A stretch of 64,000 nucleotides of DNA. It comes from Isoetes taiwanensis. Lineage: Eukaryota; Streptophyta; Lycopodiopsida; Isoetales; Isoetaceae. Each line of letters opens with the position of its first letter. Position 1 is the first letter of the stretch. The notes beneath the pieces are model-generated. The model was not told where the DNA came from and made no database searches. It worked only from the letters and a program-made list of their open reading frames with translations. A program made the translations under genes and the position numbers. The stretch covers positions 6,650,132-6,714,131 of the forward strand of contig JAJEKV010000022.1 of NCBI GenBank assembly GCA_021234155.1. The letters are read 5' to 3'. Below are positions 10,355 to 39,743 of this stretch, in pieces.

Positions 10355-10897
10355 TCAACATGTTCTACCACATCCAAATGTAAGAGACATCATATTATCA
10401 TACCATCGAATAGTACGAGGTGGTAGGCTCATGACATGACATAACAGACTTCTTTCTAGCCGCCCTCTTCCAATTGACATGTTGTCATGACCTTTAGAGC
10501 ATGGAAGATTAAGTCCAGTAGCCAAAATAACCACAAAAGCATGAGCAGAAGAAACATCAACATGGAGAGTAGAAGGAACACTAGGTGCAGCTGAGGGTGC
10601 TAAGAGCAACCCCATCAAAACTGGAGGTAGAGCATTTTCAATAGCCGAGCAATGCAAAACAACTGGCAAAGGTTGATCATGAATAGATGAAGAAACAATA
10701 ATGGTACCTTGAACCTGAGAAGAAATAGGAGGTTGAAAAAAATGCTTGAAAAGCACGAGGGCATGATGAAAGCCAGCAAAGACCTCCTTATCAAGAAATA
10801 CAGATTGATCCCTCTGGTATGTAAAGCCTACCGAGGATCTTAACGGGCTAGGCCTGATGGCTTGCCACTGAGTGTGGGCAAGGCATGGGCTCGACAC
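10355..10897 (-). other. Uncharacterised open frame, 180 residues
   Basis: A single open frame without motif I recognise. It overlaps the start of the LTR remnant at 10830, so its first residues fall inside an LTR. It may be chance or the end of an older element. I see no splice sites or promoter that support it. Confidence 0.15.
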
Positions 10898-11552
10898 CTC
10901 TTGGCTGATGCGTCACCTTCAATGGGGTTCAGGTCGTAGACGAGTAGTGGCTCTCTAGCTGCCTGTGATGGGCATGCACACCTTTGGAGGGAGTGATCTC
11001 CTCCTGCCTCATCGGGACTGGGGAGATGCAACCCAAGAGTAGCCCATTTGGCTATGCACACGGCAGACTACGGTCCAATCCCAAGACTTATCAGCCTATT
11101 CTGCAAAGTATGCACAAGAGGGGCGGATGGACGGACTACCCAACGGCCATGTTCCTATGCCAACCCAATCCATTGCCATGAACTTCGTCTGCAGTGACTT
11201 CTGGAGACCCAAGCCGTCAGTTGATCCCCATGAGTCTGAGCCTTGAGTAGAGTTTTCCTTATGTTGATGTTACTGATGTTGTTACAGATGTTATGTATGA
11301 CGAGTCACCCTTCGAGGTGGAACTATGTATATTTGATGTCATGTGCTCATGTTTATTTACACTTCCACAACTAGGATGATCCCGAGGGAGATGGGATGAA
11401 TGACACGTCCATTCTTTCCCATCGATTCCTTGTCAGACAACAAGGGATTGGTGCCAGGTGGACGACCTCTGTCGGCTTGTGCGTAGCAGAGGGATGTAAC
11501 TCCGGCTTCTTATACAATGGGAACATCGTATATGAAGTAGGGGACGTCAGAG
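10830..11552 (+). mobile_element. 5'-truncated LTR of element B
   Basis: The sequence aligns by eye, with many substitutions and indels, to the last half of the LTR at 13538-15095. Shared landmarks are GGGCTCGACA, GTGATCTCCTCCT, GGGGCGGATGGA, CCCTTCGAGGTGG, GATGTCATGTGCTCATGTTT and GGGATGAATGACACG. It ends GACGTCAGAG beside a primer-binding site. The first half of the LTR is not visible. Divergence from copy A shows that B is older or a sister subfamily. Confidence 0.85.
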
Positions 11553-11564
11553 TGGTATCAGAGC
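11553..11564 (+). promoter_or_regulatory. Primer-binding site of element B (initiator tRNA-Met type)
   Basis: TGGTATCAGAGC follows the LTR end directly. This 12-mer is the standard plant retrotransposon site complementary to the 3' end of initiator tRNA-Met, where minus-strand DNA synthesis begins. It fixes element B on the plus strand. Confidence 0.9.
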
Positions 11565-11779
11565 AATGTTCTTGGTGGACCAAGATCGAGCACTGGCCAA
11601 TTCCCGAGTAGTACTAATAGTCTAGATCTTCAGTCTTGGGGATGGCAACCCAAGCATGAACCTTGAAAATGGGGAAATTTTTTTCCTCATCTTAGAATAC
11701 TAAGCTAAGCTAATAGTTAATAGAAGTATAACTCAAAAAACCTTGAAACCTGAAAATTTTGGCTATGAGAGAGTGACCC

Positions 11780-11842
11780 CTCACAGAGTGTGCCTAGACC
11801 TTTAGCTAAAATTTAGCTCGAGGCTCTCGCGCACTATGTGAG
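11780..11842 (+). other. Nested hairpin B-h1 in retrotransposon leader
   Basis: The outer arms CTCACAGAGTGTGC and GCGCACTATGTGAG pair with a few mismatches; the inner arms TTTAGCTAAA and TTTAGCTC also pair. Its layout is shared with 11993, 24309 and three copies in element A. Confidence 0.65.
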
Positions 11843-11992
11843 TGTTTGACCATGATTCACCCAGAAAGATGCATAATTAGAGTAATTTGATAGCATAAGG
11901 TAGTTTAGAATCCGATTTTAAGCTAGGAAAAAATGTCAAACCCCTAAGAAAGTGTCTAAAAAACATAAAATAGAGTAAAAAAAGAGTGACCC

Positions 11993-12055
11993 CTCACAGA
12001 GTGCGCCTGGGGCCCTAGCTAAAATTTAGCTCAACCCTCTTGGATGCTGTGTGAG
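11993..12055 (+). other. Nested hairpin B-h2 in retrotransposon leader
   Basis: Second copy of the nested hairpin: outer arm CTCACAGAGTGCGC, inner CTAGCTAAAATTTAGCT, closing arm GCTGTGTGAG. The 3' outer arm has decayed relative to the copy at 24309. It lies about 230 bp upstream of the histone-like ATG. Confidence 0.6.
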
Positions 12056-12282
12056 TGGTGGCAGTGAATTTTATCTAAGAGAATCAAATATTTTAATCCA
12101 GCAAACACTAATGTTTTAAATAATGGGATAACATGAAAATTGCAGGTCGAAACCCTAAAACTCACAGACCTATAAATAGACATTTAGGGTTCCTCATTCT
12201 CACCATACTCCTTCAACTTGTTGTGCTCCGACCAACAAGGCAATTTTTAGGCGCTCGGAAGGTGATCAGACTATTTCAAAAT

Positions 12283-13537
12283 ATGGCCTGCACCAAACAA
12301 ACTGCTAGGGTTATTACGGAACATGGATCAATCGGCGTCCAGGTCCTCGCCGTCGGAACAGAAAGCGAGGGAGGCCCAAGAACGCACTAGAACAGAAGGA
12401 TCCCAAAACCCAAGCCCAGATCAACTAAACCATGAGCATGAGCAACACCAGCAGAATCCTGACCAGCAAGAGAATCCCAAGAAGCAGCAAGACGGGGATC
12501 TGGAGGATGATGAGAAGCAACACCCTGCAATTGCAGAGAGGGAGGCTCATCGTCACATGAGAATCAGCCAGAGAATGAGAGAAGTAAAGTAAAGAAGACT
12601 AGCAGAGAAGAAACTCCTAAGGCAAAGGGAAGAGAAGGGCAATGACCCACTCCCGGCAAAGAAACTTGCAAGGAAGACAAAGAAGACACCCAACAAAGTG
12701 ATGAAGATCATTGAGAGGGAGCCCGATAGACCTGCATCTTCCTCTTCAGAAATGGACTCAGACGATGATACTTGGAGAATACCCCACCATATGGAAGGAA
12801 CAGGACCCTTCAACCCATATAACCAAGAAGTAGCGGCCCAGAAATTAATTACTTATTCAGCCATAATGGCTTTAGCTAAAGTTGCCTGAAACTAATCCCA
12901 TTCAAATTTTCCCTGTCATACTTTCTAGCGTTTAGCTAAACTAACCCAAAAATTTCTGAGATGCGGGCACAGAAAACTTCAAGCTAAAATTATTATACTT
13001 TTTCCCCCTTGTTTCCATTTAGTTAAGTCATTTTTTTGAGTGGAAACATGCTAATAAAATGCCAACTAACTAAGTCTAGGCATCAAATTATTCAATGGAT
13101 GCTAGGAAATAAATATTAAGCATATATTTCTTATTACCTGGAATTACTTTAGCTAGACTAGCCCGAAACTCATTCCAAAAATTTCTATGGCTTAGCTAAA
13201 TGTTACAAATTTCCATACTCTTACTTTCTAGTGTTTGGCTAAAGAGCTCAAACATTGGTGTAGGCGCAGAAAAAGTTAAGCTAAAATTATTATTATTTTC
13301 AACATTTTTTCCATTTACTTTAGCCAACATTTTTTAAAAATGTGCTAAAATATCGCCAAATTGCTAAATTTGCCCTTAAATTATTCCATGGTAGCGGCAC
13401 CACCTCCCTACCCAGCCTGGCCTAAACCAGCCGCAGACCCCAAAAACCTAAACAAGCTGGCACGGGAATCCTATGTACTCAAGCACGAGGCGAGAGTACA
13501 AGAAGAAGATGGCAGAGTATAAAGAGTACATGAAGAT
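12283..13537 (+). pseudogene. N-terminal part of a histone H3-like gene inside element B, interrupted by element A
   Basis: At 12283 the frame reads M-A-C-T-K-Q-T-A-R, the canonical H3 tail apart from Cys for Arg2 (CGC to TGC explains it). After a frameshift at about 12330 an open stretch (12323-12592) is rich in Gln, Glu, Pro and Ser and looks gag-like or disordered. A later open stretch (12698-12889) contains an acidic Ser-rich segment. From 12890 to 13380 the sequence is AT-rich, with two similar blocks near 12914 and 13208, possibly an intron. An open frame at 13473 (KKKMAEYKEYMK) runs into the insertion point of element A and, after the AAGAT target duplication, continues in frame at 23756. 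Alternative: the tail match is chance, but the H3 core downstream argues against that. Confidence 0.55.
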
Positions 13538-15095
13538 TGTGACGTTCCAGCATAACATACGATATGAATACATATATTATACTGACACGTCACTAGTACA
13601 TGTCGACTCAGACGACATGTACACGACGACCGTAAAGGGTAGTACCCTAGAGTACGACCTTGTGAACCATTATATTGCACATGTTAAAGCAACATGTGAA
13701 TATAATCCCTTTTTGCCACGTGGCAATGACCCATTGACCAAAAAGGGACCAGCCCTAAATTCGTGGGGATAAAGGGGCATAAACCCTAAAAGGGAAACCC
13801 TTTCAGTTCTCGAAGTCTCGGATTGGAGCAGCGGCAGAGGATGCATTTACACTTTGAGCGGGAGCATAGAAGTCAAATCTCCGGGTTGCTTTCGATCCAA
13901 GATCAGCAAACCCGAGATCAGCAAAGATGGACGCTTTTCGGTGGGAGTGGGGAGCCCCAAGATGCGGGTGGGTGGTTGATTCAATAGGTAGATCCGAGGT
14001 TATCGGGCCTCTTTCGGTGGGTTTTAGCATCCATTCTTAGCTATAGGCGACCCCTACTGACCCTAAGAATGATAGACACTAACAAAGGAACCTAACCATG
14101 TATGATTAGGTAGATTAGAATAGATGTATTCTATTATTTTCAGTTCTGTTGTGATGATGTTTTGACATTCTATCGCCACTCTTTGTGTATTGGGAAGGGG
14201 GTAGAGACCCGAGCCCAAGTAGTTGTATGATCCTAGTTTTAGCCCATTAATTCCCAATTAATGCGGCTCAGGCATAAGAGCCCGCCTGGCCGTGGGTGGC
14301 GGAGCTAGACCCGTGACAAGGGAGGGCTTGTCTAATCGTTGATTGATCTGGCGTAACGATGGTAGGGGAACGCTGTGAGCTAGGCCTAACCCCTGGCACT
14401 GCGTGAGGGCGGGGGTATGGGCTCGACACTCGTGGGGTGATGCGTCATCTTCGGTGAGTTCAAGTCGTATCTGCGGTGGCTCTCTAGCTCAGCCCGTGAT
14501 TAGCATGAACCTTCGGAGGAGAGTGATCTCCTCCTCGCCTCACTTCCGGGATCGGGGGAGATGCAACCCGGTGAGTGGTAGCCCCTCGCTATTCACGAAG
14601 TTACGGTGGGGCTCCAATACTTTTCAGCCTATACGCAAAGTATGCACGGGGGGGCGGATGGAGTGGACTACCCAACGACCATGTTCCTATGCCAGCCAAA
14701 TCCATTTGCCATGAATTTCGGCTCGCATTGCTATCTGGGAGACCCCCAAGCCGTGATCTTTCCCCATGAGTCCGAGCACGGGTAGGATTTCCCCATGTTA
14801 TGTTGATGTACCGATGTGTTGTTGCAGCCCTTCGTGATATGGTGGACCACCCTTCGAGGTGGGTATGTTATTGTTGATTGATGTCATGTGCTCATGTTTT
14901 GTTTACGCTTCGCTAGGCTAGGTCGATCAGGGAGGCGGGATGAATGACACGCCCATTCTTCCCTAGGGTTCTTCTGGCCACCATCAAGAGCCCGATGTTA
15001 GGTGGACGGCCTCACATCGAAAGCAGATGCCGGTTTGAGGGATGAACTCCGGTTGCATCTGATCAGGGGCATCGTATATGAGCCGGGACGTCACA
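13538..15095 (+). repeat. 5' LTR of element A
   Basis: This 1558-bp LTR has terminal inverted repeats TGTGACG and CGTCACA. It matches the LTR at 22196-23755 along its length. Differences are mostly small insertions and deletions rather than substitutions. It carries the CCCTTCGAGGTGG and GATGTCATGTGCTCATGTTT landmarks shared with the older LTR at 10830. Confidence 0.95.
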
Positions 15096-15096
15096 A

Positions 15097-15108
15097 TGGT
15101 ATCAGAGC
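15097..15108 (+). promoter_or_regulatory. Primer-binding site of element A
   Basis: TGGTATCAGAGC lies one base after the 5' LTR and is the initiator tRNA-Met type site, identical to that of element B. Confidence 0.92.
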
Positions 15109-15434
15109 TCTGATCTTGGCAGACCAGGATCGAGCACTGACCGAAACCCTATAGGAACTAACTCATCTAGACATTCAGTCTTGGAGGCAAAAGCCCAAGC
15201 ACAAACCTCGAGTAGCGGGAAATTTTTTTTTCTCCCGGGGTAGAGTTAGTAATTATCTAGGATTAGGATAATTAGACAACATAGGTAAGATAGAACAAAC
15301 TGAACTCAAAAATTGATTATAAATTACTCAAAGGGTAAAAGTAATAATAGAATCTTGCTTAAAATGCTTGAATTAGTGGGTAATGACATGTAAATTGTGT
15401 AAATTGGATGTGTTGGAGCAGAGAGGGCCAACGA

Positions 15435-15498
15435 CTCCAAGAGTGCGCCAGAGCATAGTTAGGTCCCGACCTAACCCCCTCCTCGCACACTCTTAGAG
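15435..15498 (+). other. Nested hairpin A-h1
   Basis: The outer arms CTCCAAGAGTGCG and CGCACACTCTTAGAG and inner arms TTAGGT and ACCTAA form a two-level hairpin of 64 bp. Its sequence differs from the B hairpins, but the AGAGTGCGCC and GCACTC cores and the nesting are kept. It lies upstream of the H3-like relic. Confidence 0.7.
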
Positions 15499-15512
15499 GC
15501 GTTCGAAGAAAC

Positions 15513-15690
15513 AGGACCAAACAAGACCCCAATTTCATCCAAGATGGAGGATTTCATCAACAAACCAAGAAATTAAGCAAGGCAGTAGATGGAGGTCGCG
15601 TGCAACACTTTGAAGACCCATTAGCGTGCACGCTCCCATAAAAAGACACCGAAAGACATGAGGGATCGAAGTACATCAAGAGGACAGATA
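15513..15690 (+). pseudogene. Histone H3-like relic in element A
   Basis: From 15513 one frame reads R-T-K-Q and, after a short stretch, VQHFEDPLACTLP. A one-base shift then gives HKKTPKDM. These align with the H3 helix-2/helix-3 region (LVxxFEDxxxCAxHxKRVTxMPKD), and with the fuller copy at 23920-24173 ([22 protein letters not shown]). The middle of the histone appears deleted. It sits between hairpins A-h1 and A-h2, the same relative place as the H3-like gene in element B. Confidence 0.55.
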
Positions 15691-15838
15691 AATAGAACAC
15701 AAGCTGCTTTTTACCAGGAGGGCTTATATGTAGTGTATGAAAATTTTGAATAATAAAGATATATAGTCGTTTAAAAAAATGTGTATTTCATTAGGTACAG
15801 TATTAGATCTGGAGCAAATGCGACATTTTGGCCAACAC

Positions 15839-15902
15839 CTCCAAGAGTGCGCCAGAGCATAGTTAGGTCCCAACCTACCCCCCTCCTCGCGCACTCTTAG
15901 AG
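15839..15902 (+). other. Nested hairpin A-h2
   Basis: Near-copy of A-h1 (CTCCAAGAGTGCGCC, inner TTAGGTCCCAACCTA, closing GCGCACTCTTAGAG). The closing arm GCGCACTC is complete here, so the pairing is better than in A-h1. Confidence 0.75.
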
Positions 15903-16050
15903 GGGTCCAGCCAACTGGGCCCTTGATCAGCCACTTACCTCTCCAAATGAAGTAAATAAGCAAAGAAACTTGCAGTTAAGAGGAAAATAAGTAGGAATTC
16001 ACGTCTTTGAACTTGTTATTGGCATCCATTAGGCACAAATAGACCAACAC

Positions 16051-16114
16051 CTCCAAGAGTGCGCCAGAGGCCACTTAGGTCCCAACCTAACACCCTCCTC
16101 GCGCACTCTTAGAG
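16051..16114 (+). other. Nested hairpin A-h3
   Basis: Third copy. The 5' part after the outer arm changed (AGAGGCCACTTAGGT), but the outer stem and the inner TTAGGT/ACCTAA stem are intact. It lies just before the gag-like region. Confidence 0.75.
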
Positions 16115-16489
16115 GCGTCCGATTTTTCAAACCCCATAACTTGAGCTACAGAGCTCCAAATCGCCTGAAATTTGTTGCAATAGGACCGTTAGACAGTCTA
16201 GAAATGTCAAACTCCAGCTCAAAATGACCAAAATTGCTTAAACCCTTGAATTGTTTTTCCAAACTGTGGTTTGTTCGTAAATAGAAGCATACCCCATTAG
16301 TACCTCACAAGTATTGCTCTCGGCTCAAAGCTGATGCCTTACTCCAAGGTAGAGGTGCCCAAGAACACCCCTTTGTTATAGTCATCTAAACCTCAAAGAT
16401 AGAAACGAGAAGTCCAACTGTTGGTACATCACCTCTGCTCACGCCAAAAGCATAAACATTGACCTAATTTTGTGTCCTTCTAATAGAGT

Positions 16490-19400
16490 TTGACCTATAC
16501 AGCCGCCACATTCACACTCCCTATTGCCAGGATACCTAGAAAGGAGCTAGAGTCTAGAGCTGCCCAAGTCACTCCGTGTGTAGAGACTGGACTCCCCCAA
16601 ACCAACTTTGATAGGACCTTAGAGTATGCCTCAAACATCATGGAGGTTTGCAAAACAACCCTCACGTCATACCATACCACACGTCCTAATGTCCATAGAC
16701 TTGGAGATTATAGACATGTCTCGATAATCTTTGCCGAGCCATCTTGCTTGCTTATAGAGCCCAAAATGTTGTAGGAGAGCCCTTCAAGTGGACCCTTAGA
16801 CTCTAGAATATCTGGCGTTGCTTTTGAGGTACGGGGGCGAGCCACGTAAGAGCTAGAGGCAACTTCTTGAAGACATCAAGGTCCGGCCGATGTGAGATAG
16901 ATAAGGAGAGGAGCCGAAAAAGGCGGGACCCAAGAGAGGAAAAAGCACAACGACAAACACCTCAACCGACAAGCGAGTAGAACAGGACACCATAGGCCTA
17001 TCATCAATCTTCATCAAATGGGAAGAATAATTGGTAACCAAGCGGCATCAAGAATCTTCTAGATGTCAACCTCCGGCTACCACGCCCACGAGCTCACATC
17101 GAAAGAGGATCTCAGCGCCTTCACCATTTCGGCGCACATGAGTTTCAAATGGAAGAATGCAAGGCAGCAAAATACAGTGCGGGGAAGGCGTTAGACGGCA
17201 ATGCCACATTAGCATCACGAGCTAGGGCGAGAGGGCATAATCTTCCATCGAGGAGAGAAGTCATGGCGACACAGAGGGGCGATATAGAAACCGGAGGAAG
17301 ACAACCACGACCTTGCAGTCCGAAAGCTCAAGCGAATGTCATGCAACGTCAACAAAAGGAGCAACCAAGCTAGGCAACCACAAAGCACCTAAGGCTGACC
17401 CGGACGAGCTTTCCAGCTCCCTTGCACAAGCAGGAGAACTTTCATCGGTTCCAAAGGGTAGGAGACCATGAGGGGGAGGAGACGCATATCAGGGAACATC
17501 TCCGACTTGAAGGCCTATATCAGCATTAGGGGGCAAGATCAAGGAGGAGAATATTCCGCTCAAACAAGAATTCCGGACCCAGAAACACCTAGAAAGCAAA
17601 GGAAGGACGACTTTACTACGTCAGCCAAGGAGTGCGAGACTCGAATGGATAAGATCCAAGGGGACTGAGAAGAAGCGACCCAGCCGGCAGTACAAATCAC
17701 GCAAAGGCAACCAGAAGAAGCTAGGGTAGGTGCAATGGAGATGACCACACTTCCAAGCACAGGAGAGGCACCTCGGAATGAAGCAAAGCCCAATCAACAG
17801 GGGCGCACTCAGGAATTCAACCTACGGAGGAATGACAATGCCTGCCTACTGACCACGATCTCAGAGCTTCGAAGACATTCAAGAACGCCCGGACCGCAGC
17901 AGCCGGGTGATCAACCGATCAATGGCACGCACATCGGCAACCTTGCAACGACAATTGCATATAGGGGCGTTGGCGGTCACCGCATTTCCTACGACGCACA
18001 TACACATTAAGGAGGAGCATCTTTTTTCAAAGGGATCACATCGTTAACACTCTTCACAATTTGGGATGACGATTTTCGGATCAGACATGAAGCTCAACAA
18101 TAGTAGCGGCATCTCAAGGAATCCCGAGTCAACCGTAAGCTAAGAAGATGCAGCAAAACCGAAGGATCAAACGCGATAGGAGGAGGAGAAACCTTAAAGG
18201 AGTATAAACATTTAAGTAGATCTTAGTCGTTGTTTTGAAAAAGTGGATGAATTAAAATCCCAATGTAAATGCGTATATGTCTATTGTATATCTCGGGTGC
18301 TCCACAGATATAGTGGAGAAACATGAGTTTAAAGTCATGTTTTACTTGAGTTTAAAGCTTAGATCGAAAGCTCCTTCACTTCGACTACCAAATGAGGAAG
18401 CAAGGAAGCACAACTATAGCCCAAGATCAAAATGGAAGAGCAAGTAACGAGGGAGAAAGCGACCGAGCCCAAGCAAACCTTCGACTCCAAACACGGGAAG
18501 TGCCCTCAAGTAGAAGACCGCCGTCCACCCAATGTCAGAATAAGAGACAACACGGTCATGTCAAGATCATCGCCATCGCACTGCACCGGGACATCGTCCG
18601 GGGTGCACCACTACCTCTTGTGGCGGCGGCAACACTTGATGAACTTACGACACGAGTGGCCTCAACAATCGAAGGAGGAACGACCCGACATCAACGAGCC
18701 AACTAAGAAGGCAACATCGACAACCATAATTCCACCTTGTGGTAATATAGGGTGATGCGCTATGACCACGGGTATAAGATGAGAGGCACTACGAAAAGGC
18801 AACTGCGGCGAGGAGATATGCCTTCAACAACTAGGTGATGGCCGTCGGTACTCCCTACCAGTAATTAGAAGAAAAGAAGCCCATCGTATCTCGGGCATGA
18901 GGGGACATCAAACGCCCAAGGTAGAAGCACTCGACACCTTAACGACAAGGATAGCAACTGAAGCACCTTCGGCAAAAAGAGAGTTCAAGATAATAGCCAA
19001 GCTATTCAACGACAAGAGTATATCTAAAGCAGGTACTTATTCAACTCAAGGGTCAAGGCTGCGCCAAATATAAGGATCCATCACCCAGACAATATAGCCC
19101 GTGAGGGGAGGAGAGCCATGAAGCTTTACTTGGCCAGGGGAGGCAGGCATGCATAGAGGGACAAAGGTCAGGAACTGAAAGCTGGAGAAGTGTTAGCAAC
19201 CGACTTCTTCCACGAGCTTCCTAGAGGCAACAGGAGGATCAAAACTGACGGGCACAATCAAAACCACCGGAGGGTACCTCAAGACAAGAAGGCGATAATC
19301 GAGGAACATGACAACGCCCAAGCCGATGATGATCGAGGGATCAAGAAGGAAGATTGGAAGCTCGATGGAGAACCAACTAGGTGAGGTAAGGCGAGGCGGC

Positions 19401-20156
19401 GAGCGATGACTGCACGCCGGACTTGCATGCAACTTGGTGAACCCAAGGATCGGCGATTCAAAGAACAATTCTTGAGGAAGAGAACAACCTGCAGGGTATA
19501 GCCAAAGGAAGCGCCAAATACCTCAAGAGACGCCTCCAAATAGCTTCAAGTATATGAAGGGGGAACAATTACAAAAGACTAGAGCGTAATCTGAGGCACC
19601 AAATGTCGAAGCATCAACGACCAGCACACCTCTAGTTAGAATGTGATGCAAAGCGTGTTGTGCCATAGCCGACAAACATGAGGGCCCAAGTATATCACAA
19701 CAAGTTACCGGTCTGGTGACGCATACAAATAGGAGGATATAGATCGTCAACACCATGCCACCGGGAGGAACACCGATGACATTACCAAGGAGTAGGTGTG
19801 CAACTCGAAGGGAGGCACAAGGGAGACTTAATAGCTCTAGTAGTAATTGTAATTATGTAAGCGATATGCTTTGCATATATAGCTTTTTTATTTCTTCCTC
19901 CCATAGCGTAACAAATCAAACGAAGAGATGTGGGGCAATTTGCGAGGGGGTGAAGCAATCAACATCTTCAACACTCTTCGGGCAACGCGATAACGACAAG
20001 AGGACTCGATGTATGAGACCGATGGAGTCAAAGGAAACAATATCGGATATAGAGTCATCCTTTAGTCGCCAAGACAAAGAGTTCAAGACGAAAGATCTTT
20101 TTTCAACGGCGCCACCTTCGGGCTTTTTGAAAAGCGGCATGGAAGATTTCAAGTGA
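16490..20156 (+). other. Interior of element A: decayed gag-like region, no pol motifs
   Basis: Purine-rich sequence with short open frames (16490-16774, 17149-17373, 17468-17668, 17735-18010, 18392-18755, 19190-19384, 19755-20156). The first resembles, at low level, the frame after 39760 in element B (segments like FTLPIA, ELESRAAQ and PSCLLIEPKML against FALRTS, YLENRAAR and PSSCLTEPKLK). This supports a shared gag-like protein. I found no zinc knuckle, DTG, YxDD or DDE motif. Confidence 0.45.
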
Positions 20157-22183
20157 CCATCTACACCATCAAAGACCAGCAAGGAGAGGCTTCTAAGCGA
20201 ACAAAGTCAACCTCTACATCAAGAGGAGCCACCGTCAAGGAGGACGAGGTATCGGCGACTTCGGAAGAACGTGCCTTGCTACTTCAAGCGGGCAACGAGT
20301 GGATGAGCTTCTAGCAAGCTCGGGGAATCTAAGGCCATGGGGCCTAGTAGGTTAAATGTCACGGACGGCAACATCCATATCGGTATTAGAAGGCATTGCC
20401 GGATAGTCTCGCTGAAAGGATTGCCCCAATATTGAGCTAAGCGTCAAGGATTGGGAAGGAAACGCCTAGGAGTGACTAAAATTATACGATTGTTAACAGA
20501 CATCCAGCGTATTGAAATCACTTGGTGAGATTGATCACCTCGCTAAGAAGGAATCATTACTAGGATAATTGTTGACCATGTATAAATCTAGTACCTCCAA
20601 AAGAATAATCCAATAGAAAGAAAAAAAGTAATCTAACAAGTCCGGCCAACTTGTTACGATGACATCAATTCGATTGGTAGGAATATTCCAAGAGTTTAAA
20701 TAACTAAGAAAGGGGGAATCTCTAGAATATAAAAGAATAGTACATGTAAAGTACATTTAAAATAAGAATTATAGTAATCAAATAGTCTTTTGAGACAAAA
20801 GGAATTGTCATAATGACAAAACCTTGTGGTTTGGAACCGTTCTAACTAAGGGGTAACTCGTAACTATATTGAAACAAATGATAACATAATATATGCATCC
20901 ATCTTAGATGGTTATATATGTTAGCTAAGGCTAGTAAAGTAATGCGCTAAGTAAGAAGCGTATAACCTCTTAAGGGGAGAGAATAGATATGACATTGTGT
21001 ACAACGTCATTAAAGGGGTGCATGACCATTTTCTTTTTGAAGAAAGTGGGAGGGCTCAATTTTTTTGATTGAGCATTACTTGCATGAATTGACCGACCCG
21101 TAGAATGGAGTTCACTCCGGCAATGGCCGAAGCGAATAGAGCGTAAGATAGATAGATACCTTAGTGCTCAGGAGGCCTTCAACGTGCGAGACTGACGTAG
21201 TAGCTAACTACACCAATGAAGTGGAGCAAAACTATGGGAGCAATGCAACGACCAAGTCATCTCCAAATTACTCAACGCCAGCTCAATGGGGGGATGCGTT
21301 CTAGCCTTAGGTAAGGTGTGCGCATGTATTATAAGCTTTAATGTGTCTTATAGATAAGTTAAATATAGATCCTAATAACTGCATAGAAATTGCTATACGT
21401 ATATGTATCATACGGAAATAAGTTAAATAACAACGATAATGTGAGTTAGCATGTTAATTAATCCTTCGCAGGGATGCAATTCCTTCCAAGGATAGCTATA
21501 TGACCTCGAGGTCCTTATAAATATAAATAGAAAATAGAATTCAGATATACTTAAGTGCATCTTAGGGATATACTTCCAAGGGTAATGCAGGACCCAAGGA
21601 AGAGAATAAGAAGCACATCTAATTCTTGTGTATGATGATAATTAAAACCTTGTCTATGTAACAATAGGTCTAAATCAGGGTTACTGTTTAAATAATCGCG
21701 ACCTAAAAGTCGTTAAATATTGTAAAACTTAGAGTAAATATAATTGTACTATCGGAAGTATTTCTACCATTTAAACTAATCGCTTAAATTTTGTGGAGAT
21801 AGTAAGTATGTAATTATAGATATTGTAAACTTAATGCGAGGATTTCAAGGTGCAAAGACTTGCAACACAAATTTTTTGTTATAACGTGTTGCAAGGGATG
21901 AACAATTACCTTGGAAGTGTAAATTTTATATGAAATTGATAAACCTGATAAACTTAAATGTTGTATTAAGTAAGGTTAGTAATTACCTTGCTTTAATAGA
22001 GTTATGAATTGATAAGTTATTGGGATAACGCAATGTCCTAGTAAGGTTTTAAAAATATTACCTTAGAGTAATTCTAATAATTGTGTAAGTATAATAGTAA
22101 TAAATTGTAGGCATCAAGTTGGTTGCAGGACAGGAAGAGCCCAAGGTGGGGAGACTCCTGATGCTGCGGACAGCATCAATTCA
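20157..22183 (+). other. Noncoding 3' interior of element A
   Basis: AT-rich with no sizeable open frames and no motif recognised. Near the end CAAGGTGGGGAGA occurs twice (about 22140 and 22182), the second copy being the purine tract. Confidence 0.5.
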
Positions 22184-22195
22184 AGGTGGGGAGAA
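22184..22195 (+). promoter_or_regulatory. Polypurine tract of element A
   Basis: AGGTGGGGAGAA lies directly before the 3' LTR and would prime plus-strand DNA synthesis. A near-identical tract about 42 bp upstream may be a second initiation site. Confidence 0.8.
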
Positions 22196-23755
22196 TGTGG
22201 CGTTCAAAGATAACATACGGTATGAATCGTATATTATCGCGACCGCGTCACTAGTACATGTCGACTTCGGGCGACATGTACAAGGCTTAATCGTAAAGGG
22301 TAGTACCTAGAGTACGACCTTGTGAACCATTATATTGCACATGTTAAAGCAACATGTGAATATAATCCCTTTTTGCCCACGTGGCAATGACCCATTGACC
22401 AAAAGGGACCAGCCCTAAATTCGTGGGGATAAAGGGGCATAAACCCTAAAGGGAAACCCTTTCGAGTTCTCAGCCCCTTTGAGTCTCGGTTGGAGCAGAG
22501 AGGATGCATTTCCGCTGAGCGGGAGCATAGAAGTCGGATCTCGGGTTGCGCTTTGATCCAAGATCAGCAAACCCGAGATCGGCGGCATGGGCGCTTTGAG
22601 GAGTGGGAGCCAGCCAAGATGCGGGTGGGTGGTTGATTCAATAGGTAGATCCGAGTTATCGGGGCCTCTTTCGGTAGGTTTAGCATCCATTCTTAGCTAT
22701 AGGCGACCCCCTGACCTAAGAGCGATAGACACTAACAAAGGAACCTAACCATGTATGATTAGGTAGATTAGAATAGATGTATTCTATTATTTTTCAGTTC
22801 ATTGTGATGATGTTTTGACATTCTATCGCCACTCTTGTGTATTGGGAAGGGGGTAGAGACCCGAGCTCAAGTAGTTGTATGATCCTAGTTTTAGCCCATT
22901 AATTCCCAATTAATGCGGCACGTGCATAAGAGCCCTCACATTTTGTGGGTGGCGGAGCTAGACCGGTGACAAGGGAGGGCTTGTCTATCACGGTTGATCC
23001 GGGGCTGTAACGGCGGCCGGGGGGCGGCTGTGAGCTAGGCCCTAATACCACAGCGTGCGTGAGGCGGGGGTATGGGCTCGACATTTTCGTGGGGTGATCG
23101 TCATCTTCCGGTGAGTTCAAGTCATTATCTGAGCAAAGTGGCTCTCTAGCTTCGCCCGTGATTAGCATGAACCTTCTGGAGGAGAGTGATCTCCTCTGCC
23201 TCATCGGGGCGGGGAGATGCAACCCCGGTAGTGGTAGCCCCTCGGCTATTCACCCGTGGGCTCTGGGGAGGCTCAATACTTTTGACCCTATGCAAAGTAT
23301 GCACGGGGAGGGGCGGATGGAGTGGACTACCCAGCGACCATGTTCCTATGCCGCCAAATCCATTTGCCATGAATTACATGCATTGCTATTCGGAGACCCC
23401 AAGCCGTCGGTCTTTCCCCATGAGTCGAGCACGGGTAGGATTTCCCCATGTTATGTTGATGATGTCTTGATGTGTTGTTGCAGCCTCTTGTGATATGGTG
23501 GACCACCCTTCGAGGTGGGTATATTATTGTTGATTGATGTCATGTGCTCATGTTTTGTTTACGCTTCGCGGCTAGGTCGATCCGCAGGGAGGCGGGATGA
23601 ATGACACGTCCATTCTTCCCGTCGGGTTCTTGGCCACCATCAAGAGCTCCCGATGTTGGGTGGGCGGCCTCACATCGGCGGCGAGATGCTGGTTTGAGGA
23701 TGAACTCCGGTTTGCATACGATCGGGGCATCATTATATGGTAAAGGGGCGTCACA
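22196..23755 (+). repeat. 3' LTR of element A
   Basis: The LTR is 1560 bp, starts TGTGGCGTTC (one change from the 5' copy) and ends GGCGTCACA. It is followed by the target duplication AAGAT. The LTR pair carries many indels, which makes simple dating unreliable. Confidence 0.95.
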
Positions 23756-24173
23756 AAGATGTCTGAAGCTTCGCCAAGTACTATGAAGAGCATAAGATTC
23801 GGTGCGCCGAAGGAGAAAGGCCCACAAAAGAAAATTCCTTGAAGCCACTGCCGAAAAGGCCGGTACTATAAAAAAAGCCCATTAAGAGGAGCAGCCACTC
23901 ATACTTTGCGAAAGTTGCTCGGGAGATTCGACACTTCCCGAGGAGCTATGGATTTCTGATCTCAAGAGACGCTTTTGCAAGATAGACCCGTGAGATTTCG
24001 ACAAGGAGAAACGACTAACAGATGACATGTTGCTCGCATTGCAGGACGCAGCAGAGCAGAAGCTGGTGCAGCATTTTGAAGATTCTCTAGCATGTGCTCT
24101 TCATGTGAAAAGAGTCACTTGCATGCCTAGAGACATGAAGCTGGCCAGGTTTATTAAGAAGGAAGATTGCTAG
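23756..24173 (+). pseudogene. C-terminal part of the histone H3-like gene of element B
   Basis: Continuing from 13537, the frame first reads MSEASPSTMKSIRFGAPK and then a Lys-rich tail region with stops. From about 23920 it reads LREIRHF-type sequence, matching the H3 alphaN segment (ALREIRKYQ), then FLISRDAFAR against LLIRKLPFQR. After a shift near 23990 an open frame from D-F at about 23985 runs to TAG at 24171-24173. It contains [19 protein letters not shown], then [19 protein letters not shown]. By hand about 24 of 41 positions match canonical H3 in the helix-2 to helix-3 span (MALQEA...LARRI). The divergence is more like a variant or centromeric H3 than a core histone. At least two stops and shifts make it a relic. 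Histone H3 pairs with H4 in nucleosomes; a role in a retroelement is unknown. Confidence 0.75.
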
Positions 24174-24308
24174 ATCATGTACATACAATTTTTTGCAATA
24201 TAAAAGTTGTTTAATCTAAGTTGTGGACTGTAATAATGTCCTTAACGCTGTCCTGTCCACTATATGTAATTTGTTTTGACTAATTTAGACAAAAACTGAG
24301 CCCCACCA

Positions 24309-24371
24309 CTCACAGAGTGCGCCTGGGCCTTTAGCTAAATTTTAGCTCGGCCTTCTCGCGCACTGTGTGAG
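24309..24371 (+). other. Nested hairpin B-h3, best-preserved copy
   Basis: The outer arms CTCACAGAGTGCGCC and GCGCACTGTGTGAG pair with one mismatch; the inner arms TTTAGCTAAAT and TTTAGCTC pair. It lies 136 bp after the H3-like stop codon, so hairpins flank the histone relic on both sides in B. Confidence 0.75.
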
Positions 24372-24510
24372 TGTTCGACCACTGATCCATATCAAGACAA
24401 GTCCAAAACAAGAAATTAAAGCGATATTCTGGCTTAACTCTGCGAGATAAGCAAGATTCTGCCTTCATACCAAATTTTGGAGTCATCTAGAACCCAAACA
24501 GAAGCCCATT

Positions 24511-24582: not shown

Positions 24583-25004
24583 TGTTAGAGCCTGAACTCT
24601 AACCTTGCAAGAAGGATGAAAAACCCAACAATCCAAGCTCAATCTCTCAGATCAAAGCAATGCACAAGACAAAGAATCATCATCTCCATAGCTAGATCAA
24701 GCAAAATGCTCTCCCTCAATACACCGTCTCTCCCTCTGTTCTTCTCTCTCTGCTCAGATAATACTCCTCATCATAATGGCTCCTCAATGCATACGTGCAA
24801 AAATCCTGCACGCGTGCATGTGCGTATCTCCCTCCATATACGGTATAAAATCTCCTCTACCACCTCAATAGTGGTGAGTGTGGTGAGTGGTGACGAATGT
24901 GGTGACCAATGTGGTGACAAATGTGGTGAGTGGTGATGAGTGTGGTGAGTAGTGATGAGTGTGGTGAGTAGTGACGAATGTGGTGAGTAGTGATCACCCC
25001 AACA
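24583..25004 (-). repeat. LTR of element C (3' LTR by coding direction)
   Basis: Reads TGTTAGAG to CCCCAACA on the plus strand, 422 bp, nearly identical to 39317-39738. It contains a GTGGTGAGT-type minisatellite over its last 140 bp. On the plus strand it has a clear TATAAAA (about 24844) that would drive transcription opposite to the coding direction. Confidence 0.95.
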
Positions 25005-25399
25005 GTGGCGACCACAGTGGGAAAATATGCCACTCCGTGGCGGAGAACCCACGACAAAACATACTAATATGGTCCTTGGGACATGCCCCCAAATGACACA
25101 TTTACACCCTCCTCAAATCCAAATGACTGATACAAACAAAACTAGTCCAAAATGTCAGTGACGAAACAGAGCCTCTATAACTATGGGAAACTTTGAAATC
25201 TGATATCTTGAGTTCCAGAAATCCATTTGACCTGCAGCATAGCTCGTTAGATTCGTATCGCCGAAACGCATCTTTTGATGTAAGATAGATGAAGTATTAT
25301 TGAACTGTCACCATCTGTTTTTACAGAAAAACGACCTGCTGTAACCCAAAAAATCTCCACAAATTCTCTGTAATTGGAGCTATGCCAAATCTGAATCCT

Positions 25400-26520
25400 T
25401 TAGAAAAGTACTTCTCTTTCAAAATAAGGCCTGAGATCCTTGCCATTTCGAGGATTAGGCAACAATTCCCCTTCTGGAGTCATCAAATAGAAAGCCCCAC
25501 CTGGTACCTCTTTATCAATCAGAAATGGGCCTTCCCATGGACTTTGAAATTTGGATAGATGCTTCTTAGTGGTCCTGCACAACACCAATTGCCCTTCCTC
25601 AAATGGATTGTCAACCTGTAACCTGTCTTTGATAAGCTTTACTTTCTGCTTATGCCTCATATTGAAGTCTGCTGCTTCTTGTCTCATCTCTTGCAATTGC
25701 AGCAAATCATCCATCCTATTATGCACTTGATTTGGAGTTGGAACTTCTCCCAAATTCTCATAATAAGGTAGCTCCACAAATGAAAATAAAGGAATGTCCA
25801 AATGAATAGGCATCACAGCTTGCACTCCATAAACCAATTCAAATGGTGTAAATCCTGTAGCCAACTTGTAAGTACACCTGAAACTCCATAAGGCATCTGT
25901 TAAGGCTTCGTGCCAATTTCTTTGATTATCCTTCACTTTGTTTTGGCCAAGATAGCTTTCAGAATTTTGTTAGTAGACTCGGCTTGCCCATTTCCACTGT
26001 GGATAATAAGCGAGAAGCTTGTACATGTTGAACACCAATCTTTTTTCGTTAAGCGAGCTACTACTTTCCCCATGAAATGAGTTCCCGATCGGACAAAAGA
26101 ATGGTTGGAACACCAAACCGAGAAATCAAATTGTGATAAAGAAAGCTTCTTTGTGGTATTTTACGTAGCATGCTTTCTTTGGAATTGCTTCTACCCACTT
26201 CGTAAACATACATGTGGCTGCCGGGATATACTTATGACCTTTGGAAGATGGAGGATTGATAGGCCCAATGTAATCCAATCCCCACATATGAAACGGACCA
26301 ACACTCAAAATAGGATGGAATGGCATATTATTATGGCTGTTAATTGTTTATGCCTTTGACACTTCTCACATTTGCTAACAAAGTCTCTAGTATCCTTGTA
26401 AAGAGTTGGCCAATAATATCCCCAATGAAGGATCTTCCTAGCTGTGGTTACGGCTGCAAAATGCCCTCGACAATCATGTGCTTCTTTGCAACAAATCATG
26501 AGTTTGCTGACCAGCAACAC
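25400..26520 (-). pseudogene. Integrase of element C, frameshifted
   Basis: The H2C2 zinc finger is at 26305-26520 (HDCRGHFAAVTTARKILHWG, CEKCQRHK). The catalytic core begins in 26126-26326 (MWGLDYIGP with the first Asp, then FTKWVEAIP). Across a broken stretch near 26050-26100 the second Asp is seen in SDRGTHF, and near 25970 the Glu in GQAESTNK. The last open part, 25400-25936, holds the C-terminal domain (WSFRCTYKLATGFTPFELVYG, later KFQSPWEGPFLIDKEV). Integrase inserts the cDNA into the genome. At least two frameshifts break the frame. Confidence 0.9.
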
Positions 26521-26712
26521 ACCTTAATAAGAGACCTTCCATAGTCCTCTTATAAAGAATAGCTTCATGCATCACATAACCATTTTGCTTGTACTCTAAG
26601 AGCATGCTTTTGTTGCTTTGAAAATGATGAGGGATAAGTCTGATCTTGTAAATACACGTATATATTGGCATACCAAAGATCCACGGTCTCAATGAACCCT
26701 TGTAATACGCCA

Positions 26713-26905
26713 TTATCGGAAGCTGCTCTTGGCTGGTCTGTTTTCCTCTTCTATTTCAGCACCACTACTCAAATAGGCACTTGGATTATGAGCTCCTTGA
26801 GCCATCTTAACATACTTCAACTCAAATTCTTGTATGATAAGAGTCCATCTTGTAAACTTAGGATCTTGAACAGTCTTGTTGTAAATGCATGGCAATGGGT
26901 TCACA
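26713..26905 (-). pseudogene. C-terminal piece of RNase H of element C
   Basis: NPLPCIYNKTVQDPKFTRW and FELKYVKMAQGAHNPSAYLS are typical of the end of gypsy RNase H. The piece is separated from the rest of the domain by the Helitron. Across the Helitron (34874 joined to 26905) the reading frame is continuous. Confidence 0.9.
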
Positions 26906-27153
26906 TCCTATATTATAATGTTATTGGGTAAGTATGTCGTCAACGAAACCCTAAAATTGACGGTTCAGATTTAGTTAGAAAGTTAGGTTAGGCGGTGGAC
27001 CCTAACATTGGACGGCTAAGATTTGTGGAAAGAAGTTTAAAAAGAGAGGGAAAACTTAAACTCTTAGGCGAGGAGGGAATTAGAGCTCGAGAGGGAGGGA
27101 AAACGAAACTCTTAGACAGAGGGAATTAGAGCTCCAGAGGGAGAAGGAATCTG

Positions 27154-27630
27154 ATGCGACATTGCATATCAGTGGAGAGGAGGCATGGAAAAGAAGAGCA
27201 ATGCTTAGTGTTGCAAGCGCTGCTAGGGCAAGATCGCCATGCTGCTAGGGCAAGATCGCCATCTCCTCCACCAAATGGGGAAGGGTTCAGCATGGCTAAA
27301 CAAACTACGGCTGGTTTAGGACTTGGAGGCGGGGGCGGATGGCAATTTGCACAAAGGATGATGACAAGAATGGGGTGGAAAGAAGGGCAAGGTCTTGGTA
27401 AGCAGGAGCGAGGGCATAACAACTCCTCGATGACAAGTATTTTAGTGCATTCGAAGCTATCTCATGAGATGGCAAAAATCCGACCCTTCCTTATTGTAAA
27501 CTGGCTTCTTGGCACAATTTCTTCCCAGACTGGCTATGGTGTCTCTCGAGTACACAGGCCAAAGGGGCCATTCGAAGCAACAAATCTTACGGATATGGCA
27601 TCAGATTTATCCACGCCACATGGCAAATAA
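27154..27630 (+). pseudogene. Captured G-patch fragment of a DRT111/SPF45-like splicing factor
   Basis: The frame reads RSPSPPPNGEGFSMAKQTTA, then GLGLGGGGG, then AQRMMTRMGWKEGQGLGKQE, a full G-patch core with its upstream SPSPPP-GF segment. That combination is typical of plant DRT111 (SPF45/RBM17), a nuclear splicing factor. Similarity stops after KQERG. The RNA-recognition domain that follows in the parent is absent. It lies near the 5' end of the Helitron in the same orientation, a common position for transcribed captures. Confidence 0.75.
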
Positions 27631-28065
27631 AGCACAAAGGCAAATTTGTCAACTAATATCTTTCGAAGCGGATTCGATTACGATATCTGGACGCATCTAC
27701 CTCCTAATGCAAAAACAAGGCACGCAGCGACCAATATGCTCTTATTTGCAGAGAAAAAGCATTGCTCCAACAGCTAATTAGGGTTGGAGCATTTGATGAG
27801 CTTTCTGGCTAGGGCATCTGACCGGAGGGGCTGGAAGCTTATGCCAAAGCTTAAAATTCGCCGAGAATTTGGAGCCCGTCAGTATGAGCATGGTTCGCCA
27901 GGAGCTGGAGCCTGGTTCGAGTATGAGCATGGTTCGTTCGCAGGAGCTTGATTTTGTGTGCTCTCTGCAATTGTTTTTCTTGCTCGGGCATCAAGCTCGA
28001 GTTAAGCTCAAGTTTTTTATTTCACCTTCTTTGCATGCATCTAATATGTAGCAAAATAACAGGGG

Positions 28066-28471
28066 GTTCCAGGGGGATATGATATCGATGTAATCCCTGA
28101 AACCATAGACCTAAGACCATATCCATAAAACAATTCAATGGGTTATTATAAAAAAAACATAGATTTAAGATAAAAAATAGTCACGTTAGCTCACTGGTTA
28201 GATTGGTTAAGGTAGTCTTATTAGGGCATTGAGTTATTTTGGTAGAGGTTCAAACTCCCGTATTTCATATTCTAAAACCTTAAGCGAAGCCGTATAGAGG
28301 CTCGATATACTATCAAAACCTTAGGCAAACTCGTATTTGACATCTCAAAATCATAGGCGCCCCCAATCATAAATGAGCATAATCGAAACGAGAGGTGCCC
28401 AGAGGCTCCAACATACGCCCCGGCCGTGGGATTGACAGTCGACGGGTGGTAGTCCGGTGCACCTCGTTTAG
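28066..28471 (+). mobile_element. tRNA-type SINE or similar retroposon with 23-bp target duplication
   Basis: An insert of 406 bp is flanked by identical 23-bp direct repeats (28043-28065 and 28472-28494, starting AATATGTAGCAAAATAACAG). Inside, TTAGCTCACTGG (about 28189) resembles an RNA polymerase III A box and GGTTCAAACTCC (about 28244) a B box, spaced as in tRNA-derived SINEs. About 120 bp precede the A box, longer than usual, so it may be composite. It is not a functional tRNA gene: no cloverleaf forms. Confidence 0.55.
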
Positions 28472-28717
28472 AATATGTAGCAAAATAACAGGGGTCTACA
28501 TGCTTTAGGCAGATTGTGACGTGGTTCTGGCCAACACTCTGTTTTGCAGCTTCATATTTTATTATAGAGAGGGTCAGACCTCAGATAATGTATTACAGAG
28601 GCCGTTCATATTGAGGGTGTTCCACGGATTTAGAGTCCAGGATAACTGTTTACTTGCTCCTTGGCTATCTTTACTTTGGAGCAAGCTGCTCAAGACCACT
28701 ATAGATTGCACTAGATG

Positions 28718-29494
28718 ATGCTTGCAGACAGAGATTATGTGCAATATTCAGTCAGGGTTTGTAGGCCGGAATAATATTTTCAAAGGAATTAAATTGTCCA
28801 TTTTGTTACTTGAGATTACTTTCGGTGGTTAGTCAAAATGCCTTGCTCTTTCTTTTTCTTTAGCTTCACCGGATAACCCTTTGCAATGATGGATTTAGGT
28901 GTTGCATCCAAAACAATATTGGAAGATCATCATGAGGTCTAGCCTCTATGCGAGTTCTTTTATTCATGTTCTCACAGTCTTGCGGATATTCAGCATCTAG
29001 AGTGGCCAGCTTTTGCATTTGTTGCAATTTGAGCCAAGGTATAAGTGTCGGTTTCTTATGGCTGAATTTAAAGCTCTCTAATATCCCCGAATGTTTTTGC
29101 GGTACTATATCCCATAGATTGCTTTGGATCATGCTTGCGACGAGTTTAGGTGCAACATTCACCGGGGTTGATAGACCGGAAGAATATTGGCAATGGAATT
29201 AATTGCCCATTTCGTTCTTCTTGAGATTACTTGAGGTAGTTAGTCGGGATGCCTTGCTCTTTCTTCTTTCTTTAGCTTCACAGGATAAACCCTTTGCAAT
29301 GATGGATTTAGGTGTTGCATCCAAAACAATCTTTGGAAGATCATCATGGGGCCGGCCTCTATGCGGTTCTTTTATTCATGTTCTCTGAGTTTTGCAAGAA
29401 AATATTCTCGCATCTAGACTGGCCAACCTGCATTTGTTGCAATTTGAGTTAAGGTATAAGTGTCAGTTTCTTGCTGAATTTAAAGCTCTCTAAT
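28718..29494. repeat. Direct duplication of about 365 bp inside the Helitron
   Basis: The units 28718-29082 and 29129-29494 share long segments, such as TGATGGATTTAGGTGTTGCA and AAGCTCTCTAATAT/G. They differ by scattered substitutions and indels. A minus-strand frame (28866-29162) runs through the first unit but is not shared intact by the second, so I do not call a gene. Confidence 0.8.
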
Positions 29495-29990
29495 GCAGAT
29501 GTATATTAGAGCATTTAAAGGGTATCTGTGCAGCTATTTGTGCTCTCTGCAATTGTTTTTCTTGCTTGGGCAGCAAGCTCGAGTTTTCTATTTCACCTTC
29601 TTTGCATGCATCTTCTTATCATAAACAAGGTGACGGATCAAACGCACTAATGACCTGCAATTGCACTAATAAAAAGCATCTTTCGAAGATTCCCTAAGAT
29701 TCCCTTAAATTCGACCACTTTTGGGGGGTCTTTTAAAAAAATGAACCACAAATTTAGATTTCGAGTGCCATTTTTAGGTAGATTTTAATAAATGAAAGTC
29801 TTTAGACTTGTAGTGCATCGATATAGGGTCTGAAAATAAAAAGTAATTTTGTAAAAAGTAAGCACATACAGGAAATCTACAAACTGAAAACACCACTAGA
29901 ATCCTCGTAAGTAGATTCGTTAACAACTATCAAGAAGGGTGAAATCAAGGTTCCTAGAATAGGCCTAAGGAAAAACAAAACACAAGGGCG

Positions 29991-34840: not shown

Positions 34841-34844
34841 GTTA

Positions 34845-34873
34845 TGCCCAGCAACGCTGGGCACCGTTACTAG
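34845..34873 (+). other. Helitron 3' terminal hairpin and CTAG end
   Basis: The stem TGCCCAGC/GCTGGGCA with loop AAC is followed by CCGTTACTAG. The same arrangement occurs inverted at 57072-57101 (stem GCCCGGC/GCCGGGC, then ACACGTTACTAG), so two members of one Helitron family lie in the window. Confidence 0.92.
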
Positions 34874-36162: not shown

Positions 36163-36199
36163 TTCTTCTTGATTTCCTTGAGAAATATTAATGTTCTTG

Positions 36200-36400
36200 A
36201 CTGAATGTGGTGACTGTAATGAATGTGGTGAGTGTGGTGACAGTGACGAATGTGGTTAATGTGGTGACTGTGGTGAATGTGGTGACAGTGATGAATGTGG
36301 TGCGTGTGATGACTGTGGTGACTGTAATGGATGTGGTGGATGTGATGATTGTGATGAATTTGGTGCATGTGGTGACTGTGATGACTGTGGTGAATATGGA
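36200..36400. repeat. GTGGTGA-type minisatellite within element C coding region
   Basis: Imperfect units of the type GAATGTGGTGACTGTGGT. On the minus strand it encodes a Ser/Pro/His-rich repeat (SPHSPQS) at the end of the open frame 36256-36708. The motif resembles the minisatellite in the LTRs of the same element. Confidence 0.75.
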
Positions 36401-36983: not shown

Positions 36984-37230
36984 TCAAGATGCACACTCTC
37001 CTGGAAATTTCAAAACCATGAAATCCAAGATTGCTTCCACCTCATAAACCTTGCATAAAACATTTCTTATGACTCCCATAGGCTGCACCTTCATTTGATT
37101 GAATGCTTTGAGCATCATAGTTGTCGGTTCCATCATTTTCAATCCAACTTGAAGCATTATGTGGTAAGGCATTACATTCACCCATCAGGTATCTATATTA
37201 GCCTCTTTGATTAGATATCCATTAATACTC
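36984..37230 (-). pseudogene. Aspartic protease of element C with broken active site
   Basis: DVSINGYLIKEANIDT is followed by a TGA where the Gly of the catalytic D-T-G triad should be (GGA to TGA explains it), then VNVMPYHIMLQVGL and FMVLKFPGE. This matches a retropepsin-like domain. The stop falls at about 37185-37187. Confidence 0.75.
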
Positions 37231-39738: not shown

Positions 39739-39743
39739 GTAGA

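Follow-up and report, generated by a model that had tools for sequence, protein, structure and literature searches.

A histone H3-like open reading frame ahead of gag in a clan of Ty3/Gypsy chromoviruses of Isoetes taiwanensis

Why would a retrotransposon carry a gene resembling a histone? The question is raised by a 64,000-nt stretch of the genome of the lycophyte Isoetes taiwanensis (the window), in which a decayed long terminal repeat (LTR) retrotransposon, element B, begins at about 10.80 kb, is interrupted by nested insertions, and holds an open reading frame (ORF1) similar to histone H3. A preliminary description of the window had placed this gene between a primer-binding site (PBS) of the tRNA-Met type and the gag of an LTR element, and the same arrangement was seen in the window and in other copies. 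It had pointed to ferns for comparison, whereas the host is a lycophyte, and had treated the gene as belonging to one odd element; a histone in an LTR family was indeed found, and the single element gave way to a clan. The genome searched comprised 1,658,258,908 bases in 1,110 contigs, and the H3-carrying elements in it form a clan of at least three Ty3/Gypsy chromovirus families, A, B and C. The reading we prefer, to which we give a probability of roughly 45%, is that ORF1 may be an H3 variant encoded by this clan, maintained by selection, acting through host H4 and chaperones and displaying an H3K4 tail in families B and C.

In the window, ORF1 opens on the forward strand with MACTKQTAR at 12283-12309, an imitation of the H3 tail in which Arg2 is replaced by Cys (R2C). 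A charged linker and the first half of the pre-core follow at 12310-13537 (+), a region matched by L015, L021 and L024-L028 that carries frameshifts, stops and an extra stretch in the window copy. The rest of the pre-core and the H3 fold lie beyond a nested element (element A) at 23756-24173 (+), on the same strand as MACTKQTAR, and consist of the frame SSHSYFAKVAREIRHFPRSYGFLISRDAFAR, a frameshift, a 59-residue frame and a stop at 24171-24173. Both the tail look-alike and the core proposed from the letters are present. The 59-residue piece (23994-24170) matches Pfam PF00125 (E 3.7e-10) and, in the PDB, chains of histone H3 of solved structure (E 5.7e-12); the 31-residue piece at 23890-23985 and the 35-residue tail piece at 12283-12387 gave no family in Pfam. 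The window core is 95% identical to that of the B copy L018 over 59 amino acids, and a sister copy without element A, L015 (C35:805585-809311), matches the window on both sides of the junction (left 97.9%, right 95.9%).

The 5' LTR of element B occupies 10800-11550 (+; edges approximate), and the LTRs of B copies align, that of L030 for example at 81% over 781 columns. The PBS TGGTATCAGAGC at 11553-11564 (+) is an exact match of the initiator tRNA-Met type, and the identical 12-mer stands near the LTR end in L002, L003, L027 and L030. Downstream, the first part of a broken ORF2 was found at 39741-40440 (+), where tblastn to pieces of the B ORF2 gave E values of 6.7e-13 and 8e-23. The preliminary description had ended the element at 40440, which is too early: element B resumes at about 52.2-54.8 kb. 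There the C-terminal part of ORF2 lies at 52201-53123 (+), of which 52225-53123 is collinear with L030 4260-5178 and 52201-52758 has no Pfam match, and a broken gag and protease follow at 53386-54830 (+; Retrotrans_gag 2.6e-6, Ty3_capsid 1.8e-5, below the cut-off, and RVP_2 4.8e-7), 44-47% identical to family A gag-pol.

The preliminary description had allowed that other copies of the family might lack the histone; genomic sister copies do carry the H3 sequence, and its proposed search for intact copies yielded family A and C copies with both LTRs in which PBS, ORF1 (H3), ORF2, Ty3-type gag-pol and a chromodomain are laid out in this order. The LTR pairs are 97.6% identical over 1,314 columns in C1060 (family C), 96.5% over 1,259 in C1046 (family C) and 96.2% over 572 in C908 (family A). 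Family A (L001-L009, L012, L013) has an ORF1 of up to 485 codons made of an N-terminal domain, a basic region and an H3 core 78-89% identical to the host protein. Family B ORF1 mostly begins with MARTKQTAR followed by V, M, I or A and continues with a charged linker, the pre-core and a core 43-51% identical to host H3, and family C (L059-L068) has MARTKQTARK, a YNERP-type linker, a pre-core resembling that of B by eye, and a core 60-61% identical to host H3. In the family A copy L003, a 1352-aa frame contains, in order, Ty3_capsid (2.2e-16), RVP_2, RVT_1 (1.4e-38), RT_RNaseH, Integrase_H2C2 and rve (5.7e-7, below the cut-off). The family C sequence L069 (pol of the C1060 copy) has RNase H, integrase and the chromodomain PF00385 (4.5e-11) in one frame, and the family A sequence L029 (C908) has a chromodomain (1.2e-8) in a frame different from that of the integrase in that copy. 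For family B, the copy L030 provides LTR, PBS, H3 ORF, an ORF2 piece and gag, and the window copy provides the protease; B core and B gag matches lie about 3 kb from each other at C907, C1034 and C1035, and at C1056 the distance is 14 kb. Target-site duplications (TSDs) were shown only for two elements nested in the window, and a PBS with an LTR pair was also seen in one A and two C copies.

ORF2 links the families as well. The ORF2 of A and that of B each match the ORF2 of C (E 9.6e-14 and 1.6e-13, with the low-complexity filter off), and A against B directly gave E 0.095; an ORF2 shared in this way is consistent with one ancestral layout of the three families. It spans 470-521 codons between the H3 ORF and gag in L003 (5006-6415, -) and L069 (756-2318, +). 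The L003 ORF2 has no Pfam match and 0 PDB matches at E 1. The N-terminal part of family A ORF1 (L003 6952-8055, -) appears by eye to be a domain of about 200 amino acids plus a linker, and likewise gave nothing in Pfam and 0 PDB matches at E 1; its homology to the B linker was considered and rejected (hhalign E 0.08, probability 0.7%). A search of viral contigs with ORF2 and family C ORF1 returned 0 relatives.

How widespread are such genes in the genome? Family searches with the N-terminal part and with the core gave 1,409 and 1,135 candidates, 40 of which were scored in each case (43 and 40 rows), the window itself being among both. A Pfam histone search of the genome gave 8,705 first-look candidates; of the 150 that were scored, 15 begin where canonical H3 does and the other 135 do not, and many of the latter lie in long open frames, the longest of 494 aa. 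Exact MARTKQTA(R) sites number 904 and 984, or 1,888 genome-wide with host H3 genes included, against 0 in the reversed control, and Lys follows directly in 516 and 535, or 1,051, of them (host genes again included). The search pattern, with its MGN codons, would match Ser as well; residue 2 is Arg in all of the 100 sites listed, which contain 52 distinct DNA strings. Fourteen sites, mostly picked for differing codons, were read further, and an H3-core match was found within 2 kb in 12 of them (L045 and L052 being short), with no such match in the 2 kb read beyond the tail site in L049 and L057. In L049, the H3-tail start MARTKQTARVPGTGPKFAEAIAIEN... lies on the reverse strand from about base 60, on the frame without a core match in that stretch, and L049 may represent another tail-bearing family. 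Three MARTKQTARK sites on one strand of C217 (120974, 126783 and 132564) are spaced 5.8 kb apart, like a tandem array. Histone H4, searched as a control, is not amplified: 69 candidates led to 43 matches, among which 16 are full-length genes (99-100%).

The window copy is itself a relic broken by frameshifts and stops, and by itself it would suit the view that these genes are pseudogenes of host H3, or were captured by chance and persist as functionless passengers. Comparison among copies makes this view highly improbable. The ratio of nonsynonymous to synonymous substitution (dN/dS), a measure the preliminary description had proposed for the histone, indicates purifying selection on the H3 core, with NG86 medians of 0.043 in family A (17 of 55 pairs), 0.070 in B (55 of 91) and 0.033 in C (28 of 28), the medians excluding pairs in which synonymous changes were too few or synonymous sites had reached saturation; these values are nowhere near 1. 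The pooled uncorrected ratios (pN/pS) for the core are 0.129, 0.134 and 0.055, respectively. All 11 A copies, when compared with the host gene L011, show saturation at synonymous sites but a dN of 0.10-0.17, which argues that the capture is old. The pre-gag position is common to the three families, the copies share element flanks, and exact tail sites are abundant, all of which count against this view. As far as the sequences tell, ORF1 was captured from the host long ago and then kept by selection.

Elsewhere in ORF1, dN/dS is 0.09-0.10 in the pre-core, 0.14-0.25 in the linkers plus basic tail (pooled pN/pS 0.34-0.58) and 0.17 in the family A N-terminal domain (10 of 55 pairs; pooled pN/pS 0.49). 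Shifted-frame stretches in L033, L034 and L039 raise the linker dN, and because L033-L044 were selected for the length of their open frames, intact copies are over-represented. The family B loci L024, L025 and L028, which have no single-frame core match, contribute to none of the dN/dS comparisons or trees. The B dN/dS comparison, of 14 rows, excludes L016 and L018 for their shortness, and L030 and L032 are 99.2% identical and hence not independent.

The tail was examined in 19 B loci that had been picked by their core. It was found in 15, of which 10 have exact MARTKQTAR, 14 keep at least 7 of the 8 residues, and all 15 keep K4. The commonest letter at each tail site occurs in 13-15 of the 15 loci, and at the next eight sites in 5, 15, 7, 11, 10, 6, 5 and 6. 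Among family C copies with a readable start, which had been found by a tail-containing query, the tail is exact in 5 of 7. The canonical tail with K9, K14, K27 and K36 is not retained: it is cut to about residues 1-8 in B and 1-9 in C, and none of it is present in the A copies read.

The core has an H3 fold as judged from sequence alone, with Pfam PF00125 matches of 3.2e-42 in family A (L003) and 7.2e-20 in B (L018) and matches to H3 in the PDB. C110, K115, R116, D123 and L126 are kept in 11/11 A, 15/15 B and 8/8 C rows, and H113 in 11/11 A, 14/15 B and 8/8 C, where the counts cover all 11 A, 15 B and 8 YNERP-type C rows and leave out C_L053 and C_L058. C110, H113, D123 and L126 are residues of the H3-H3' interface, and R40, R42 and T45 help to hold the DNA at the edge of the nucleosome. 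All 11 A rows retain R40 and T45, as against at most one row in B or C; family A also keeps Y41 (or F) and R42 (or K), and R63 is changed to P in 15/15 B rows. Set against the nucleosome structure, the kept residues would preserve the H3-H3' bundle and the dyad contacts, with the DNA-edge contacts gone in B and C.

In the trees, family A groups nearest to host H3 and far from B, with weak support inside the A/host group (88/38 and 85/89); the split of host from element has a support of 91/81 and includes two host rows only. The tree with this split omits A_L002, A_L008, B_L032, B_L033, B_L038, B_L041, B_L042, B_L043 and C_L059 for shortening, and one other tree had 22 rows, a subset of those then collected.

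The same alignments bear on a link to the centromeric histone CENH3, which the preliminary description had also raised. A CENH3-like protein could steer the element to centromeres; in helix 1 most B rows carry LLIPRA(P/A)F, a motif resembling that of plant CENH3, and centromeric clades exist among chromoviruses according to excerpts of PMC3059260. Descent from CENH3 is not supported, however: loop 1 is of host-H3 length, without the CENH3 insertion, in 11/11 A and 15/15 B rows, most C copies have LLIRKAPF, and the trees do not join B with CENH3. The B core is 39-45% identical to two plant CENH3 sequences and 43-51% to host H3, and is thus nearer to canonical H3. When a maize-type CENH3 was used as query, canonical H3 and H3 like that of family A ranked first among the 150 rows scored, with no clear CENH3 among them; the host CENH3 was therefore not identified, and the comparison rests on the plant sequences. 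We consider a centromere-steering protein very unlikely.

If ORF1 is an element-encoded H3 variant, histone chaperones of the host would help its fold to pair with host H4, and it would enter chromatin or a chaperone-bound pool. Removal of the initiator Met, as in host H3, would leave a free ARTKQTAR end on a long, flexible, charged arm, and this exposed tail could engage H3K4 readers or writers. The chromatin of new or integrated copies might then stay permissive, or the integration complex might be held to chromatin, with less silencing as the result. In family A, a near-canonical H3 core joined to its own N-terminal domain is consistent with a nucleosome tether. The position between PBS and gag, the predicted H3 fold, the conservation, and the ARTKQTAR N-terminus of B and C are established by the sequences, and they suggest that these elements may imitate or manipulate host chromatin. 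Recognition of the ORF1 tail by the elements' own chromodomain was considered and set aside; its motif reads KWKHL, as compared with KWKGY in HP1, which makes a complete aromatic cage improbable.

Several observations weigh against an element-encoded H3 of this kind. R40, R42 and T45 are lost in 8/8 C rows and in nearly all of the 15 B rows, and Y41 is lost in 13/15 B and 8/8 C, which makes the formation of ordinary nucleosomes uncertain for B and C. The tail was not found in 4 of the 19 core-sampled B loci within the stretch searched (of these, L015 has MVCTKQTAR beyond the reach of the search, and L043 and L044 had a shorter upstream stretch), tail residues are changed in 2 of the 7 family C copies with a readable start, and L001-L004, the four A copies read as far as their start, do not have the exact tail. 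The family C tail alone left 1 of 28 pairs usable, with a pooled pN/pS of 0.65. In none of the B copies read, which were followed to the protease, was a reverse transcriptase (RT), integrase, chromodomain or 3' LTR found, and the window has neither an RT nor a 3' LTR of element B.

The loss of the DNA-edge contacts would fit a structural or packaging role of ORF1 within the virus-like particle or pre-integration complex, where its basic linker and histone fold would bind RNA or cDNA and host chromatin would not be involved. The long linker with its many basic and acidic residues, the place of ORF1 ahead of gag, and ORF2 as a putative second partner also fit such a role. However, packaging does not explain why ARTKQTAR and K4 are kept while most of their neighbours drift, nor why the H3-H3' residues C110, H113, D123 and L126 are kept, and we regard it as unlikely. 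The kept interface residues, the tail and the many sites, the evidence that also serves the reading of ORF1 as an H3 variant, would fit a decoy equally, which would soak up histone chaperones, H4 or H3-tail enzymes and weaken silencing broadly and not at element DNA. A decoy would require high expression and is no better at explaining the long linker kept in ORF1; it too seems improbable.

A wider form of the H3-variant reading is that the clan runs its own H3 variants in its life cycle: these would become part of host or element chromatin together with H4 from the host, exposing only the H3K4 end of the tail (with K9 in many lineages), so that the element writes its own chromatin state. We hold this to be possible but doubtful. 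The 1,888 exact H3 starts, host genes included, are about 100 times the number of host H3 genes if the 15 canonical-start rows represent most host genes, and since the sites so far outnumber these genes, element histones could alter host chromatin itself. A retroelement-encoded H3 with an exact H3K4 tail, long kept under selection, would open to direct testing the question of whether mobile elements oppose or exploit chromatin with a histone of their own. The many diverged copies in one genome also amount to a natural mutagenesis of H3, revealing which residues are kept once the host's other constraints are lifted.

We found no report of a histone in an LTR retrotransposon in the open-access PMC literature, the scope of which mostly leaves out subscription journals and bioRxiv, and term counts for Isoetes genome papers, including PMC8566536, showed no use of the word 'histone' in the main text. 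The elements share with the plant chromoviruses of non-seed-plant clades, as described in excerpts of PMC3350952, the Ty3-type order of capsid, protease, RT, RNase H and integrase, the C-terminal chromodomain, and the tRNA-Met-type PBS; they differ in having the H3 ORF1 and ORF2 before gag, neither of which those excerpts mention. An orchid Ty3/Gypsy element with an AlkB demethylase ORF (excerpts of PMC12786077) likewise carries an extra host-type protein to its advantage, although that protein is an RNA demethylase and not a histone. Single H3 histones occur in DNA viruses such as xenomavirus and the Dishui Lake phycodnavirus, for which interaction with host histones has been proposed (PMC9145170, in part). 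These are likewise lone, host-captured H3 proteins, 73-87% identical in the fold and some with long N-terminal extensions, but in the excerpts of PMC9145170 they are scattered cases, whereas here a retroelement clan has well over 1,000 sites in one genome, and in B and C the tail has been shortened to roughly residues 1-8/9 and sits on a new linker. The bracovirus histone CvBV-H4 described in the same excerpts, a virus-encoded histone that has its own tail and enters host nucleosomes, is a comparable case; unlike the element H3, it is an H4 of a wasp-associated DNA virus and a virulence factor (PMC9145170).

ORF1 is also flanked by conserved hairpins. Upstream, hairpin 1 lies at 11775-11850 (+; fold -32.3 kcal/mol), with a stem that covaries across 22 aligned copies, and hairpin 2 at 11985-12062 (+; alignment A2); downstream, a further hairpin lies at 24306-24378 (+; -42.2 kcal/mol; covariation in A2). 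Across the aligned copies, two-sided changes that preserve pairing were seen at 9 of the 10 pairs predicted, alongside some broken cells. Seven single folds, made without shuffled controls, gave -20.9 to -43.6 kcal/mol, and Rfam returned 0 families for 3 hairpin loci. In family B, hairpins of about 70 nt stand twice 5' and once 3' of ORF1 in the window and L030, and three times 3' in L026; in family C they are 3' of ORF1, as in L069 at 220-292 and 424-496. The B and C hairpins differ in sequence and keep the stem. They are a possible signal for RNA processing, translation or packaging.

Two insertions separate the parts of element B in the window. Element A, inside ORF1, is a 10.2-kb LTR element at 13538-23755 (+) with the TSD aagat at 13533-13537 and 23756-23760, a PBS at 15097, and LTRs at about 13534-15080 and 22192-23739 that are 87% identical. 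These LTRs are about 74% alike to those of B and the PBS is the same as B's; H3 ORF, ORF2 and gag-pol queries gave no match in element A, which is probably a non-autonomous relative. The second nested LTR element occupies 24583-39740 (no strand assigned, its RT on the reverse strand), with LTRs at 24583-25006 and 39317-39740 that are 98.6% identical and the TSD gtaga. Outside element B, a 646-codon frame at 1571-3511 of the window resembles, by eye, a pentatricopeptide repeat protein.

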